Below, one piece after another: positions 36,785 through 55,862 of a stretch of DNA of 64,000 nt. A program made the translations under genes and the position numbers. Within the stretch, counting starts at the first letter, position 1. Each line of letters starts with the position of its first letter. The notes under the pieces are model-generated. The model saw only the letters and a list, made by a program, of their open reading frames with translations, ran no database searches and was not told the origin of the DNA. Origin of the DNA: Candidatus Hepatoplasma crinochetorum (GTDB taxonomy: Bacteria; Bacillota_I; Bacilli_A; Mycoplasmatales; Hepatoplasmataceae); assembly GCA_001179805.1 (NCBI GenBank), contig CWGI01000001.1, forward strand, positions 186,001 through 250,000, read 5' to 3'.

Positions 36785-37207
36785 ATGGCATTTAAAAAAA
36801 TTTACAACAATAAAACTCGGTATTATTTTTTCGTAAAAAATAAGGACACTGAAATTTATCTAACAAGAATAATTAATTTTCATGATTATAGAAAAAATTT
36901 AATTAAAATAAAGGAATTTCCTGCTAATTTTGGTTATTTTATTTTTAAACCAAAAGGATTTAATTCTTTCTTAATAAGCGAAAAACTTGATATTATTTTT
37001 ACAGATTGAGATAATAGAGTTTTTTATTTAGAAAAAAGCTTTAAAACAAATAGTTTTACAAAAGGATTTAAGAATGCTAAATTTATCTATATATTGCCCA
37101 AGAAAACGATTGAAAATTTTGATATCGCAAAAAATGATATTATCTCTCATCGAAGAATGTCCAATAAAAAATGAAGAAAAATTGAATTTAGAAAAATTAA
37201 TTATTAA
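36785..37207 (+). CDS. DUF192-like protein
   Basis: A 140-residue protein (TGA at 37007-37009 and one further TGA read as Trp). The order of elements, GYFIFKPKGFNSFLISEKLD, IIFTDWDNRVFYLEK, then KFIYILPKKTIENFDIAKND, follows the DUF192 pattern (an aromatic/hydrophobic strand, DIIFLD-like strand, then a YVLELP-like strand and a xIxxGD end), though identity is low. Function unknown in the family. TATAAT hexamers lie at 36738-36743 and 36758-36763. It is convergent with the first nucleoside kinase and the two 3' ends overlap by 4 bases. Confidence 0.55.
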
Positions 37208-37848
37208 ATTCTTTTTGAAATATATTTAATAATATTTTCGGTCACTTCATCGATTGTAAGATAATCAGTATCTAATTCAACATATTTTTTTGAATATTTA
37301 CGGAAAATATCTTTATTTGCTTTTTTAGAATAATAACGATAATAAAGATCTTGTCAATATTCTCGATCAAATTTTTTTTCTTCTGAACGATTTCTTTTTT
37401 GCATTCTCTCCATTATTACATCAAAAGAAGCACGAAGAACGATGAAAAAATCTGGTTTCTCGAATAAATTAATCTTATCAAGCATTGAATTGTAAACATT
37501 TTTATATGCTTCGTCCAATAATTTTGTTCTTCCTTTTTTGATAAGTTTTAGTTCAGAAAATATTTTATCTTCAATAAAATGTCGATCATAAATAATTATA
37601 ATATCCTTATGATCTTTGTATTTTTGTTCAATTTCAATAAATTGATGAAATCTTTCGAATAAAAAATCAAGTTGAGCAAGAAAATTTCAAGTTGAAAAAT
37701 TATTAAAATATAGATCAAAATAAGGAGAATAAACTAAAATTTCTCCCATTATAATTACTTTTTTGCCTTTTTTTTGATAATAATTTTTTAAATTATTAAC
37801 TGCTGTGCTTTTCCCAACTCCGGTTGTTCCACTGATAACTATTTTCAT
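37204..37848 (-). CDS. Deoxynucleoside kinase, third tandem copy
   Basis: A 214-residue kinase of the dCK/dGK family: P-loop GTTGVGKST at the N-terminus, the DRHFIED (DRS-like) motif at about residue 97 and the Arg-rich lid with RMQKRNRSEE. It phosphorylates deoxynucleosides for salvage, which mollicutes need because they lack de novo nucleotide synthesis; base specificity cannot be read here. It is the last of three adjacent paralogues. AAGGA precedes the ATG, which lies inside the preceding gene: the two coding regions overlap by 53 bases in different frames. Confidence 0.92.
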
Positions 37849-38482
37849 AAATATTTCCTTTCTCTATTATTTGTAAAATATCATTTAAAATTTTTTCTTT
37901 GCTTTGATCTGCATCTATTAAATAAAAGTAATCACTATTTTTTTTAAAATATTCTCTTATTTTTGAATCACTATAATATTTTTGATATAACTCTTTTCAA
38001 TATAAATTAAGTTTTGAATCTAATTCTGCTTTTCTTCCTCTTTTTTTAATACGATCTAATGTTATTTGAAAATCACTTATCAAAAGAAAAAGATAAATTT
38101 TTTTCTTTTGATAATTAATTTTTTCAAGAAACTGTTGATTAAGTTCTTTGTAGATATTAAAATTTAAAGTTGACATCGATTCTTTTACAAGATAAAGAGA
38201 TGAAAATACATAATCATCGAGGAAATGCCGATCATAAATATTTATGAAATCATTATCTTTATTTAAAAATACTCCTTTAAATCTCAATCTTAAAAAATCA
38301 ATTTGGGTAAGAAATGATCATTCCTCCTTATTTTGATAATAATAATCAATATAAGGATTTTCTTCCGTAATTTCTTTAATTAAATTAGTTTTTAATTTAT
38401 ATTCATTTTTTAACTTTAAATAAAGCATTTCAGAAATCGTTGATTTTCCAACACCAACAGTTCCACTTATTATGATATCCAT
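37796..38482 (-). CDS. Deoxynucleoside kinase, second tandem copy
   Basis: A 228-residue paralogue with P-loop GTVGVGKST, DRHFLDDYVF and a lid containing RIKKRGRKAE. It shares the YYYQNKEEWSFLTQIDFL-type segment with the first copy. Its C-terminus runs 53 bases into the next kinase gene in another frame, adding about 17 residues (ending WEKHSS) beyond what its relatives have, which suggests loss of an original stop codon. One TGA at 37997 is Trp. Confidence 0.92.
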
Positions 38483-38493
38483 ATTATTAATAA

Positions 38494-39159
38494 TTATATT
38501 TGTTGTTCTTTTTTTAAATAAGAAATAATTTCTTCTTTTACTTTTTCAGGAGTTTTATTGACCGTATCAATAATAATCATTTTTTCAACATTTCTTTTAA
38601 AATGATTTTGAATCATCGGTCTTTGATAATAATTATAATAGAGATCTTGTCAATATTTTAAATCGACATCTTGTTCTGTTTTTCGATTACGTTCTTTAAG
38701 TCTTTTGATAACAATATCAAAATCAGCGGTTAGTAAAAAGAAATAATTTGGTCTAGCTTTTAAAAAATTCATTTTATCGATTAATTCTTTATAAATTGCT
38801 TGATATGTAATTGAATTTATATTTGAAATATTTTCTTTAATTGTATGCAATTCAGCAAAAACATAATCATCAAGGAAGTGACGATCATAAATTGTAATAT
38901 AATTTTTATTACTATTTTTTGCAAAAGTTTCTCGTTTTTTTTCATCTAATAATCATTGTTTAAAACGGCCCAATAAAAAATCTAATTGTGAAATAAAAGC
39001 TCATTCTTGTGGATTTCGATAGTAATAATCAAGATAAATTGATCTTACTGTCTCTTCTTTTAATAAATTTAATTGATTATTTTTTTTTAGTTCTTCGAAC
39101 AAAAGATTCGAAACAGTTGATTTTCCAACACCAACAGTTCCAGAAATTACAATTCTCAT
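38494..39159 (-). CDS. Deoxynucleoside kinase, first tandem copy
   Basis: A 221-residue paralogue with P-loop GTVGVGKST, DRHFLDDYVF and lid RLKERNRKTE. It is closest to the second copy; the third is more different. A GGAG motif lies about 20 bases before the ATG, which is far. The efp gene ends 38 bases upstream, so all three kinases may be read from the efp side. Confidence 0.92.
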
Positions 39160-42811: not shown

Positions 42812-43480
42812 TTAGTAATCGCTTTTTCCTTCTAATCCTCTAATAATATCAATTCCGTTCGATGTTCCGATTCGATCAGCACCAGCTTTAATTAATTCTT
42901 GTGCTTGTTTTAAATTTCTAATACCACCTGATGCTTTTATTTTTGCTCGTCCATTAATTATTTTTTTCATTAATTTAACATCTTCTGCTGTTGCTCCTGT
43001 TGTATTTACAGCTGTTGATGTTTTGATAAAATTAAATCCGGCCTCTACTCCTAATGTTGTCGCAAGTTCTTTTTCTTCTTTATTTAAAAGTCCTGTTTCA
43101 ATGATAAGTTTTATTGTTTTATTTTTTGTTACTTTTCTTAAAAGTGATAATTCTTTTTTAAGATAATCTTGATCTTTTTCATGTAATTTACTTGCATTAA
43201 TAATAAAATCAAGTTCATCAACTCCATCTTTTATTGCTTTTTTAGCTTCAAAGGCTTTTGTTTTCATTGATTGTTGACCATAAGGAAAACCGATTACTGT
43301 AACAACTAAAACATTATTCTCATGTAATATCTTACTTACATGAGAAATTCAAAAGGGTGCAATACACAATCCTTTAAATTTATATTTAATTGCATCATTT
43401 ACCGCTTGATCTATTTCTTTAGTTAATACATCTCTTTTTAATAAAGTATGATCGATATATTCATTTATATTTTTTTCCAT
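42812..43480 (-). CDS. deoC: Deoxyribose-phosphate aldolase
   Basis: A 222-residue TIM-barrel aldolase: YIDHTLLKRD at the N-terminus, GVDELDFIIN, KLIIETGLL and AKIKASGGIRN, in which the Lys forms the Schiff base. It splits deoxyribose-5-phosphate into glyceraldehyde-3-phosphate and acetaldehyde, feeding nucleoside carbon to glycolysis. AGGTG lies about 7 bases before the ATG. It has its own promoter with a palindrome (43513-43537). One TGA at 43268-43270 region is read within the N-terminal part. Confidence 0.95.
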
Positions 43481-43512: not shown

Positions 43513-43537
43513 ATAATCTTATGTTAATAAGATTATA
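43513..43537 (-). promoter_or_regulatory. deoC promoter with palindromic operator
   Basis: The minus strand shows TATAAT at 43532-43537 embedded in a perfect inverted repeat, ATAATCTTAT-TAAC-ATAAGATTAT (43513-43536). It lies 33 bases before the deoC start and downstream of the small-RNA terminator, so deoC appears to have an independent, repressible promoter. A DeoR-type control would fit but no deoR gene is in the window. Confidence 0.55.
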
Positions 43538-43568
43538 CATAAAATAATAGCAACTTTCGATTAAGCAT

Positions 43569-43596
43569 AAAAAAAGGCACAAGCAATGCTTGCACC
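43569..43596 (-). terminator. Intrinsic terminator of the small RNA
   Basis: On the minus strand GGTGCAA-GCAT-TTGTGCC-like stem (GGTGCAAGCA / TGCTTGTGCC, about 8-10 bp including G-C pairs) followed by seven T residues. It ends before the deoC promoter begins. Confidence 0.88.
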
Positions 43597-43716
43597 TATT
43601 TCTAAATTTTTTAGTACTTATCTCTTGATTGAGTTACCATCTATCTGCGTTCTAAAATCTAAAATCTACAAAATTCTGCGTTCTTATGGTTATCTTCTAA
43701 TCTACTTCCCAATCAA
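43569..43716 (-). ncRNA. Candidate structured small RNA of about 150 nt
   Basis: The segment has no credible reading frame on either strand, is visibly less AT-rich than other spacers, and is bounded by a promoter (43722-43750) and a strong intrinsic terminator (43569-43596). The predicted 5' end starts with UUGAUUGGG (43708-43716), which pairs over 9 bp with CUCAAUCAA (43625-43633). Inside that stem ACCAU can pair with AUGGU, and the motif AGAACGCAGA occurs twice, 31 bases apart (43644-43653 and 43675-43684). A short hairpin CUAAA/UUUAG follows before the terminator. It does not show the conserved bases of SRP RNA, RNase P RNA, tmRNA or the purine riboswitch. The closing stem and internal loops could fit a 6S-like RNA, but that is only a guess. 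Confidence 0.6.
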
Positions 43717-43721
43717 CATTT

Positions 43722-43750
43722 ATTTTAACATAAAAATTAAATAATTCCAA
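43722..43750 (-). promoter_or_regulatory. Promoter of the small RNA
   Basis: On the minus strand TTGGAA (43745-43750), a 17-base spacer and TAAAAT (43722-43727), close to the sigma-A consensus. The -35 box begins 3 bases after the stop of the zinc-ribbon gene. The predicted start of transcription is at about 43715-43716, at the first base of the closing stem. Confidence 0.65.
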
Positions 43751-43752
43751 AT

Positions 43753-44046
43753 TTATTCTTCTATTATTTCTTGTGATTTTGAAGAAACTTTACTTCATCT
43801 TTCAAGTTCAGGTAATTTTTTATTATACATATTAATCATAAAATTTGGGAAATGTTTTTGTTTCATCATTTCTTTATTTTTATTTTGCATATCTTCTACA
43901 GTAAAATTTGGAAAAGTAAATTCTCCATCTTTATAACAATGTGAACAATATTTTTCTGATGGTGAACCATCTTTTTCTTTTGCCGGACCATTTTGATCTT
44001 TTTTTAAAGACATTCCACAAGACTGACAAATTTTTTTGTTATTCAT
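43753..44046 (-). CDS. Zinc-ribbon domain protein
   Basis: A 97-residue protein with ICQSCGMSL and KYCSHCYKDGEF, two CxxC pairs in the arrangement of the putative zinc ribbon family that also has the trailing CYKDG. The rest is a short helical tail ending in IIEE. Start ATG at 44044-44046, with AAGGAAG 4-8 bases upstream. Function unknown. It stands between dnaI and the small RNA. Confidence 0.85.
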
Positions 44047-50874: not shown

Positions 50875-51642
50875 TTAACCGACAAGAACCAAAACACCAC
50901 CAGCAAGCGAACAAAATAAACCCAAAATTCCAGCAGCTGTTTTATATTTTGTGTTTCCTTTAAGTAATGTAATATTTAAATAAATACAAGGAATTGTATA
51001 AAAAAGTGTAAATATAAAAATACTAAATAGACATCCAACAATAATATTAAGAATCGCTCCAGCTTTTACAGCTCCTGAAATTTCATCTGCATAAAATGTC
51101 TGTTGATGATTATATTGTTCAAAATTACTTTGAACTCTATTAGGATTTTTTAAATCATCTTCATTTAATAATTTAAGCATCTCTTCACGTGTTATCTTAC
51201 CTACTTCAAAAGGTATTTTTCGTAAAATTAATTGCTCTAGTAATTGTTGATCGGTTAAAACATCATAATTCATAGTTGATGATGTTTTTCCAATATTCCT
51301 ATTAGGATTTTTTAAATCATCTTCATTTAATAATTTAAGCATCTCTTCACGTGTTATCTTACCTACTTCAAAAGGTATTTTTCGTAAAATTAATTGCTCT
51401 AGTAATTGTTGATCGGTTAAAACATCATAATTCATAGTTGATGATGTTTTTCCAGTATTCCTATTAGGATTTTTTAAATCATCTTCATTTAATAATTTAA
51501 GCATCTCTTCACGTGTTATCTTACCTACTTCAAAAGGTATTTTTCGTAAAATTAATTGCTCTAGTAATTGTTGATCGGTTAAAACATCATAATTCATAGT
51601 TGATGTTGTTTTCCCCATATTCATAATTGTTGATTTTTTCAT
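50875..51642 (-). CDS. Membrane protein with three identical 54-residue N-terminal repeats
   Basis: A 255-residue protein. Residues 10-171 are three almost identical copies of a 54-residue unit (DVLTDQQLLEQLILRKIPF, then a KITREEMLKLLNEDDLKNP end). Each unit has two helices joined by an extended stretch, similar in outline to SAP or HeH/LEM-like nucleic-acid- or protein-binding domains; this similarity is weak. The C-terminal 80 residues have two or three hydrophobic helices (GAILNIIVGCLFSIFIF; GILGLFCSLAGGVLVLVG). The repeats would lie on the cytoplasmic or external side of a membrane anchor. It is inserted between ylxM and the exonuclease gene, where Bacillus has nothing equivalent. Function unknown. 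Confidence 0.75.
   Translation of the reverse strand: MKKSTIMNMGKTTSTMNYDVLTDQQLLEQLILRKIPFEVGKITREEMLKLLNEDDLKNPNRNTGKTSSTMNYDVLTDQQLLEQLILRKIPFEVGKITREEMLKLLNEDDLKNPNRNIGKTSSTMNYDVLTDQQLLEQLILRKIPFEVGKITREEMLKLLNEDDLKNPNRVQSNFEQYNHQQTFYADEISGAVKAGAILNIIVGCLFSIFIFTLFYTIPCIYLNITLLKGNTKYKTAAGILGLFCSLAGGVLVLVG
51139..51624. repeat. Three tandem 162-bp in-frame repeats
   Basis: Units at 51139-51300, 51301-51462 and 51463-51624. They are nearly identical at the DNA level; differences seen are a few bases at unit edges (for example the last unit reads GATGTTGTTTTCCCC where the others have GATGATGTTTTTCC). Identity at silent sites means recent duplication or ongoing homogenisation, and the copy number is likely to vary. 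Confidence 0.95.
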
Positions 51643-53018: not shown

Positions 53019-55862
53019 TTAATTAATAAATTCTTCTTTAATTTTATCTAAACTAACATTAAAAATACTTGTAATTCCTTTTTCTTGCATCGTTACTCCA
53101 TAAAGAATATCTGCTTTTTCCATTGTTCCTGGTCGATGAGAGACAATAATTAATTGTGTTTGATTATTTAAAATTTTAGCAAAATTAGCAAATCGCTCTA
53201 CATTTGCTTCATCAAGCGCAGCTTCCACTTCATCTAAAAGTAAAAGCGGAAGATTCCGAATTTCATTAATTGCAAAGATTAATGAAAGTGCAATTAATGA
53301 TTTCTCTCCTCCTGAATATAAAGAAAGATTTTTTACAGCTTTTCCAGGAGCAGAAGCTTTAATTTCAAGTCCTGATTCTAGTAAATTTTCTGGTTCTAAA
53401 AATTCCAAACGTCCATTCCCTCCTCTAAACAATGTTTTAAATATTGCATCAAAACGATCATTTATTTTTACAAATGTCTTATTGATTCTTTTGATCATTT
53501 CTTGATCCATAATTTTAACAGTAGAATTTAATTTAGCTTTAGCTTCACTTAAATCTGAAACCTCATGATTTAATTTTTGATAATCTTTTTCTAATTTTTG
53601 ATATCTTTCAATTGCCTCTTGATCAATATAACCAATTGCTCTTAGTTCTTTTCGATATTGCTGTTGATTTTTAATTATTTCTTCCAATGGTTCTTTTAAT
53701 TTGGGGAATTCTTTTTCTTCTAAATTTTGATATGTTAATTGATAATCTTTATTCAAAATGTCAACATTTTCACTTATTACTCTGATCAATTTATCAAGAT
53801 TAATTTCAGAATATTGAATCTTTTGTAAAAGTTCTTGTCATCTTTTATTTTGCAATTGTTGATCATCTTGAGCATCGATTATTTTAATTGACAATTGATG
53901 CTTTTGTGCATTCAAACTTTTAATTTGATTAATTATTTTTTCAAGTGATAATGGTTTTTCTGTTTTTATTTTTGTCTCTACTTTATTAAGATCAAAATCT
54001 TCCTTAAAAATAGTTTGATAATTTTCCAATAATTGTTGAAATTCTCAATCTAAATGATGAAGTCTTTCTGCATTTCGAATAATTTCTTTCTGTACTAAAT
54101 CTCTTTTTGCATTGAAATCTAAAATATTTGTTTCCAAATTATCAATCATCATCTCATTTTTTTTGATAATTTTTTCTAATTTTTCTTGTCCTAATTGATA
54201 TTTTTCAAGTTCAATTTTCTTGCTTATTTTATTATTAAAACCACCCTTTACAGTAAATCCAGGATAAATAATATCACCTTCTAATGTTACGATAGGTAAT
54301 CGATATTGAATAAATTTTGCTGCAATTAAAGCTGAATCTAAATCCTCAAATATTGCAATATTTCCGCCCAAAGAGAGGGCAACATTTTTAAATTTAGAAT
54401 CAATTTTAATTACATCACTTAAAATTGCAGTAAAACCATTTATTTTTAAAATGACATTTTTAAGTTCGCTGATAATTGTTTTTTCTTTTACATTTTCTGC
54501 AGGAATAAAGGTTGCAACGCCTAATTTATTTTTTTTAAGAAAAGAAATTGCATCTTTAATTGTTTTTTCATTATTTACAACGATATTTTGGAATTTATTT
54601 GCAACCGCTGCTTCAAGTGCTAATTCATATTTTTTTTCAACTTTGATAATATCTTTTACCGTTCCATAAATTAAATTAAAAATTAATTTATTATCTAAAA
54701 TAGATTTTACGGCACGATTATAATTCTTATCAGCATTTTTTAAATGTTCTAATTGAAATTTGATTTGATTTGACTTTCCGATATAATCTTCTGTCTCTTG
54801 TCTTAAATCAGACATTTTAATCTTAAAACTACTAATTTCTTTTGTTAAATTTTGTTCTTCTTTTTCTGCTTCTTTAATAATTTCTTTTAAATCATTAATA
54901 CTATAAAGAGAGTGTTTAATTTTATTTGAAAATTCCTTTTTATCACCTGAAAAATTAATTTTTTTATTCAAATTATTCTGTAGATCAGTTTGTTTTGTAT
55001 GCAAAACCATAATTTCTTGATCTAATTTAAGAAGATTTGCTTGATTTTCTTTTAATTCTTTTGCAAACTTATCTAAATTTTTTTCAATAATTTCTTTTTC
55101 TTTTTTTGATTTTTTTTCTGTTTCTATAAGTTCTTTCTGCTTATGATATGAATCTTTTAAAATAATTTGAATAAGAGGTAATTCTATTTTTGTCAATTCT
55201 GCTTTTATTTGTAAATAATTTTTTGCTTGTTCACTTGCTTTTTTTAAGGGTTCAATCTGTCTTTTTAAAGCATTTAATTTTACTTCAAAAATATCTAAAT
55301 TTGTTTTTACCTTATCAAGTTTTAGAAGAGCTTCTTTTTTATGGATTTGATATTTACTAACCCCCGATGCTTCATCTAAAAGAGATCTTAAATCCTGTGG
55401 TCTTGCTTCTGCTATTTTTGCAACCGATCCTTGCGAAATAATTGAAAGATCGGTATTTCCTAATCCCGTATCTAAGAAAAGATTTCGAATATCTTTTCTT
55501 CTCACTTTTTCCTTATTGATAAAATATTTATTTTCATTCTGATTACGATAAGATTTTCTCGTAATAATTACTTCTTGTTCTTGATGCTCTAAAAGTTTAT
55601 TACTATTATCAAAAAAAAGACTAACCTCAGCATAATCTGCTGCATTTTTTGTAACTGTGCCACTAAAGATCATATCGTCAGTTTTTTTTGCTCTTAATGT
55701 TTTTTTTGAAGTTTCACCCAATACTCACTTTAAAGCATCATTTATATTTGATTTTCCTGAACCATTTGGACCGACTATTACCGTAAGTCCCTTTTTAAAT
55801 TCAATTGTTGTTGGAAAAGCAAATGATTTAAAACCCTTTAATTCAATTTTTTTAAGAAACAT
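53019..55862 (-). CDS. smc: Chromosome segregation protein SMC
   Basis: A 947-residue protein (TGA codons as Trp). N-terminal Walker [10 protein letters not shown] in [19 protein letters not shown], two long coiled-coil arms, a hinge at about residues 400-520 ([19 protein letters not shown]), and the C-terminal head with [17 protein letters not shown] and [15 protein letters not shown]. At 947 residues it is about 20 percent shorter than Bacillus SMC but normal for mollicutes. It condenses and segregates chromosomes. The ATG overlaps the rnc stop (TAATG). Confidence 0.96.

Follow-up and report, generated by a model that had tools for sequence, protein, structure and literature searches.

A predicted small RNA with six regularly spaced AGA triplets upstream of deoC in Candidatus Hepatoplasma crinochetorum

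Locus Organization

The stretch of DNA considered here is a 64-kb window of the genome of Candidatus Hepatoplasma crinochetorum Ps (G000), read with genetic code table 4, in which the minus strand between a zinc-ribbon gene and deoC carries, in this order, a promoter, a predicted small RNA (sRNA) of ~147 nucleotides (nt), and an intrinsic terminator. All coordinates are those of this window unless a contig is named. We judge from the sequence that the feature at 43569-43750 is real and forms a conserved unit, and its best reading is a free sRNA with its own promoter and terminator, which would lie outside the known families and would not be a leader of deoC. The genome was compared with those of Ca. 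H. scabrum Ps-JP (G003, AP027133), Ca. H. crinochetorum Av (G002), and a fourth Hepatoplasma (G001). The published draft of Ca. H. crinochetorum Ps comprises 2 contigs and 621,166 nt, without CRISPR-Cas (PMC4536667). The features of the locus are collected in Table 1.

Table 1. Coordinates of the predicted sRNA, its elements, and the flanking genes
Feature	Position	Strand	Description
sRNA promoter	43722..43750	-	-35 TTGGAA at 43750-43745, 17-bp spacer, extended -10 TG.TAAAAT at 43727-43722; TATGNTAAAAT kept in G002 and G003
Predicted small RNA gene, ~147 nt	43570..43716	-	Inferred start ~43716, end in the terminator T-run; from promoter/terminator geometry and homologs in G003 and G002
P1 5′ strand	43708..43716	-	UUGAUUGGG; partner 43625-43633
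P1 3′ strand	43625..43633	-	CUCAAUCAA; partner 43708-43716
P2 5′ strand	43687..43690	-	ACCA (AUCA in G002)
P2 3′ strand	43636..43639	-	UGGU (UGAU in G002)
Six-AGA array	43644..43684	-	Period ~7 nt; includes both AGAACGCAGA copies
Linker, 30 nt	43596..43625	-	AGAGAUAAGUACUAAAAAAUUUAGAAAUAG; same in all three species
Intrinsic terminator	43569..43597	-	10-bp GC-rich stem (hairpin 43597-43575) and T7 tail
Separate deoC promoter	43514..43560	-	Extended -10 TATGTATAAT; includes palindrome TAATCTTATTAACATAAGATTA at 43514-43535
deoC (deoxyribose-phosphate aldolase)	42812..43480	-	Downstream neighbor; PF01791
Zinc-ribbon protein gene	43753..44046	-	Upstream neighbor; PF12674

The near-consensus promoter with 17-base spacing that the first-pass annotation had read at this position is present (TTGGAA-17-TAAAAT, with a TG before the -10 element). 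By scan alone, promoters of this class are not above chance, with 6 sites in the region against 3.1 ± 1.6 expected. The promoter is nevertheless credible, because the position of TATGNTAAAAT is shared by all three related species that carry the RNA. The GC-rich intrinsic terminator, also noted earlier, is far above chance by scan (1 in the region against 0.1 ± 0.3 expected), and its energies in the three species are -12.8, -16.9, and -12.3 kcal/mol. In G002 its stem has been rebuilt by changes on both sides, with the pairing kept. That deoC has a promoter of its own after the terminator is likewise upheld, since an extended -10 promoter located 3′ of the terminator is conserved in the three genomes. 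A palindrome, TAATCTTATTAACATAAGATTA, lies over the -10 element of this promoter; it is perfect at deoC only, in three genomes, is absent from the fourth, and is likely an operator for a deoC repressor.

Conservation and Distribution

BLASTN finds the RNA only in G003 (89%) and G002 (82%), where the gene order is the same, and the promoter, RNA, and terminator are kept together with the flanking genes in the three species. In G001, a synteny search places deoC, the zinc-ribbon gene, and a DnaI-like gene at separate locations, with no RNA beside them. When a covariance model was run against the family and against 320 genomes from the order, it recovered the three known members and otherwise weak matches (E 0.008-0.9), of which those that were read are coding or chance AT-rich in appearance. 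Scanning the GTDB genome contigs with the linker pattern matched a single genome, that of Ca. H. scabrum, and the same scan of IMG/VR matched no viral contig.

Intergenic DNA is generally well conserved among these species. Genome-wide, ~22 intergenic stretches, including those of rRNA and tRNA, have invariant runs of at least 30 nt, in a list that left out the gap of the sRNA itself, masked by a spurious 52-amino-acid open reading frame. Because the 30-base invariant run of the linker is not exceptional alone, the case for the sRNA rests on the pattern of change rather than on identity.

No open reading frame is conserved across the three species. A peptide gene was considered and rejected, as a 9-codon ATG frame and a 52-amino-acid antisense frame are present in the window and neither is kept in the relatives. 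Having its own promoter, its own terminator, and no conserved coding frame, the locus has the makeup of an independent intergenic sRNA gene. Rfam gives no match at the gathering threshold, the best sub-threshold one (E 0.25) reflecting terminator-like sRNA similarity only, and this agrees with the initial description of the RNA as undescribed-looking.

The AGA Array

The AGA triplets start at 43684, 43677, 43667, 43660, 43653, and 43646 in the window. In core coordinates the starts are 35, 42, 52, 59, 66, and 73 in the window genome, 36, 43, 50, 56, 63, and 70 in G003, and 35, 42, 49, 56, 63, and 70 in G002. The period is thus regular in G002, while the window genome has one 10-nt step, with a 3-nt insert after the second unit that is found in this genome only, and G003 has one 6-nt step. 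None of the 18 AGA columns varies, compared to 14 of the 24 spacer columns (hypergeometric 3.7e-5, post hoc), as counted by eye on the three-species alignment. The array triplets are mostly UAGA and always NAG, and in the predicted ensembles the AGAs are mostly unpaired, at 0.61-0.68 compared to 0.50-0.55 over the core as a whole.

The array is also rare. The pattern (AGANNNN)6 occurs once in the G002 genome, where ~5e-5 would be expected by chance, and a six-AGA array is unique in the G003 genome when spacings of 6-8 nt are allowed. Across the order (320 genomes), the exact pattern turns up 3 times, and the two cases outside this RNA are simple tandem repeats. Three consecutive UAGs at 7-nt spacing lie only within the sRNA, with one instance in the window genome and two overlapping ones in G002, and each RNA contains 7 UAGA compared to 2.3-2.7 in dinucleotide shuffles (P 0.0015-0.003). 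The doubled AGAACGCAGA motif described in the first pass is part of this pattern, in that both copies sit in the conserved array. Their exact doubling is private to the window genome, the relatives having AGAACGCAGA/AGAACGAAGA and AGATAGTAGA/AGAATGAAGA instead.

Folding of the RNA

Without its terminator, the core is no more stable than dinucleotide shuffles (z of -0.13, 0.21, and -0.87), and the earlier characterization of the locus as clearly structured is therefore overstated. The 9-bp closing stem (P1) is present in the window, and its inner 7 bp are formed in all three species. As its sole change is one-sided, from A-U to G-U, P1 is compatible with the alignment rather than proven by it. 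P2 shows one compensatory change, from C-G to U-A in G002. RNAalifold favors a rival 5′ hairpin (UGAUU/AACCA), but in the window sequence an A-C mismatch disrupts it; P1 and P2 together form in all three species, and with three sequences the two arrangements are not firmly separable. The linker is predicted to be mostly unpaired, with a weak 5-bp CUAAA/UUUAG hairpin.

Proposed Function

Oligomeric RNA-binding proteins recognize rows of short, identical triplets that are single-stranded and regularly spaced. The six AGAs at 7-nt spacing suggest protein capture rather than switching of deoC, and we tentatively favor an sRNA that acts as a multivalent decoy for a protein and has a second, invariant single-stranded segment of 30 nt. 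According to this proposal, RNA polymerase would start at the extended -10 promoter and stop at the intrinsic terminator, so that the transcript would be ~147 nt long, as the anatomy and conservation of the unit indicate. The weak basal stem, P1 and perhaps P2, would then display a largely single-stranded loop with the six AGAs, which could offer an oligomeric RNA-binding protein several binding sites at once. The RNA would titrate or deliver the bound protein, as CsrB/RsmZ do with a different motif, and the invariant segment between P1 and the terminator may act as a second contact site, for a protein or for a target RNA.

Several observations weigh against this proposal. Tandem Repeats Finder (TRF) detects 2.6 perfect copies of (TTTTAGA)n, so that the array may be a decayed tandem repeat, and in the window genome the period is interrupted by the 3-nt insertion. 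Only three homologs are available, two of them close, and the AGA motif was recognized post hoc. Furthermore, no candidate for the binding protein emerged from those small proteins restricted to the RNA-bearing species that were checked, none of which had a Pfam match.

Neither Hfq nor CsrA has a match in the window genome, and HutP (PF09021) is absent from G000, G002, and G003 even at E 10, with the B. subtilis control found. An Hfq-dependent sRNA was accordingly rejected, Hfq not being encoded.

A 70-amino-acid protein (G000:C1:277658-277870) is present in the three RNA-bearing species, is absent from G001, and has no Pfam match; it is a possible partner of the sRNA. A more specific form of the proposal, in which a genus-restricted decoy RNA with six NAG heptads would be read by a putative ring-shaped protein whose sites have HutP-like geometry, HutP, CsrA, and Hfq all being missing from the genome, would constitute a new multivalent sRNA-protein regulatory pair in a near-minimal bacterium, and is in our view rather unlikely as a whole.

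Alternative Explanations

Protein decoy or scaffold is our first choice, with antisense action through the linker ranked second. In the latter, the invariant linker or the purine-rich loop would pair with mRNAs in trans, the AGA array being incidental or structural. A perfectly conserved single-stranded segment by the terminator is the usual place for a seed region, and mycoplasmas are known to have sRNAs specific to particular lineages (PMC5088518). However, when the linker and the 5′ loop (but not the array) were scored against the start codons of 404 orthologue triples, shuffled sequences equaled the best three-species target score in 15 of 40 cases for the linker and in 35 of 40 for the loop. 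Hfq is not encoded, and other intergenic stretches have invariant runs just as long. This explanation appears unlikely, although it is the closest contender. We consider it improbable that the locus is a neutral or decaying relic, i.e., a conserved transcription unit without present function whose heptads are a decayed tandem repeat. The closeness of the species, the lack of the gene in G001, and a core fold no more stable than chance would all be compatible with a relic, but the promoter, the linker, and the AGA columns are unchanged while the spacers and the sequence of the terminator stem turn over, with the pairing kept.

The remaining alternatives concern the identity of the RNA and are much less probable. 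In each of the three genomes that carry it, the RNA is found immediately 5′ of deoC, as a leader or riboswitch-like attenuator would be. Yet deoC has its separate conserved promoter after the terminator, and G001 has deoC without the RNA. In addition, G002 has replaced the whole sequence of the terminator stem but not that of the upstream RNA, so that no antiterminator partner is conserved and hence no attenuation follows, which makes a cis-acting attenuator or riboswitch of deoC very improbable. The first-pass preference for a free sRNA over a leader is thus retained, the unit being conserved in three species with a terminator that covaries free of any antiterminator constraint. Least probable of all is a diverged known RNA, such as 6S RNA, signal recognition particle (SRP) RNA, RNase P RNA, or transfer-messenger RNA (tmRNA), or the trans-activating CRISPR RNA (tracrRNA) of the Hepatoplasma Cas9 system, even though the size of ~147 nt would fit and Cas9 is present in two of the three species. 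Rfam places SRP, RNase P, and tmRNA elsewhere in G000, the last also located by ARAGORN, and is negative at the locus itself, in line with the earlier statement that the RNA does not show the conserved bases of these three. 6S RNA, a long imperfect hairpin with a central bubble, was rejected in view of the weak fold and the lack of an Rfam match. As for tracrRNA, the window genome has no cas9 (see also PMC4536667), the energy of the duplex between the CRISPR repeat and the sRNA equals that of shuffles, and a tracrRNA-like gene is located elsewhere in all three genomes.

Although it lacks Cas9, the Ps genome retains, outside the window, a tracrRNA-like gene in synteny with its G002 and G003 counterparts, together with a short CRISPR array carrying the same repeat (G000:C1:45290-45470 and 53421-53633); from their sequence we take these to be an orphan tracrRNA and array.

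Genome Context and Implications

The usual sRNA chaperones are missing from near-minimal mollicutes, whose RNA regulation is poorly known. A strictly spaced triplet array in a conserved sRNA provides a definite binding motif, through which a new RNA-binding regulator might be discovered in arthropod symbionts, Hepatoplasma being symbionts of the isopod gut. If no protein binds, the RNA would be one more lineage-specific sRNA.

By sequence appearance, ribonucleotide reductase, thymidylate synthase, dUTPase-like, and purine/uracil permease-like proteins are encoded in G000, G002, and G003 but not in G001. The co-occurrence of this gene set with the RNA makes a link to deoxynucleotide metabolism possible. 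Elsewhere in the window, three tandem related frames at 37204-39159 resemble deoxynucleoside kinase paralogues, and a protein encoded at 50875-51642 has three near-identical copies of a ~53-amino-acid segment (GKTSSTMNYDVLTDQQLLEQ...NPNRN), followed by a C-terminal membrane-like part.

Comparison with Known Systems

The lineage-specific sRNAs of mycoplasmas resemble the present RNA in being intergenic, lineage-restricted, and mollicute; they have been reported as antisense regulators on the basis of predictions, with reverse transcription PCR for some (PMC5088518). CsrB/RsmZ decoys are, like the RNA studied here, free intergenic sRNAs in which a short single-stranded motif is repeated and the number of copies stays the same although the sequence around them drifts. 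In those decoys, GGA in hairpin loops binds CsrA, whereas the motif here is AGA/UAGA at a 7-nt period. An RNA of the CsrB/RsmZ type would have several GGA and a CsrA homolog; with one GGA per RNA and no CsrA match, membership in that type was rejected.

TRAP sites, with 11 G/UAG triplets, are likewise UAG triplet repeats for a ring protein. Their spacers are 2-3 nt, compared to ~4 nt in the sRNA. The hut sites of B. subtilis HutP also consist of NAG triplets at a 7-nt period, and the sRNA has six NAG. The HutP sites of Kumarevel et al. (2005) are said to have 4-nt spacers, hence the 7-nt period. Taking that period as reported, the sRNA shows the clustered NAG triplets of a HutP-type site, with one irregular step each in G003 and the window genome. 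HutP sites lie in an mRNA leader as two separated clusters, whereas the present RNA is a free sRNA with one run of six, and a HutP-regulated RNA was rejected because the three RNA-bearing genomes encode no HutP protein. With HutP, Hfq, and CsrA not encoded, the sRNA is therefore not a member of these systems and at most works like such a site.
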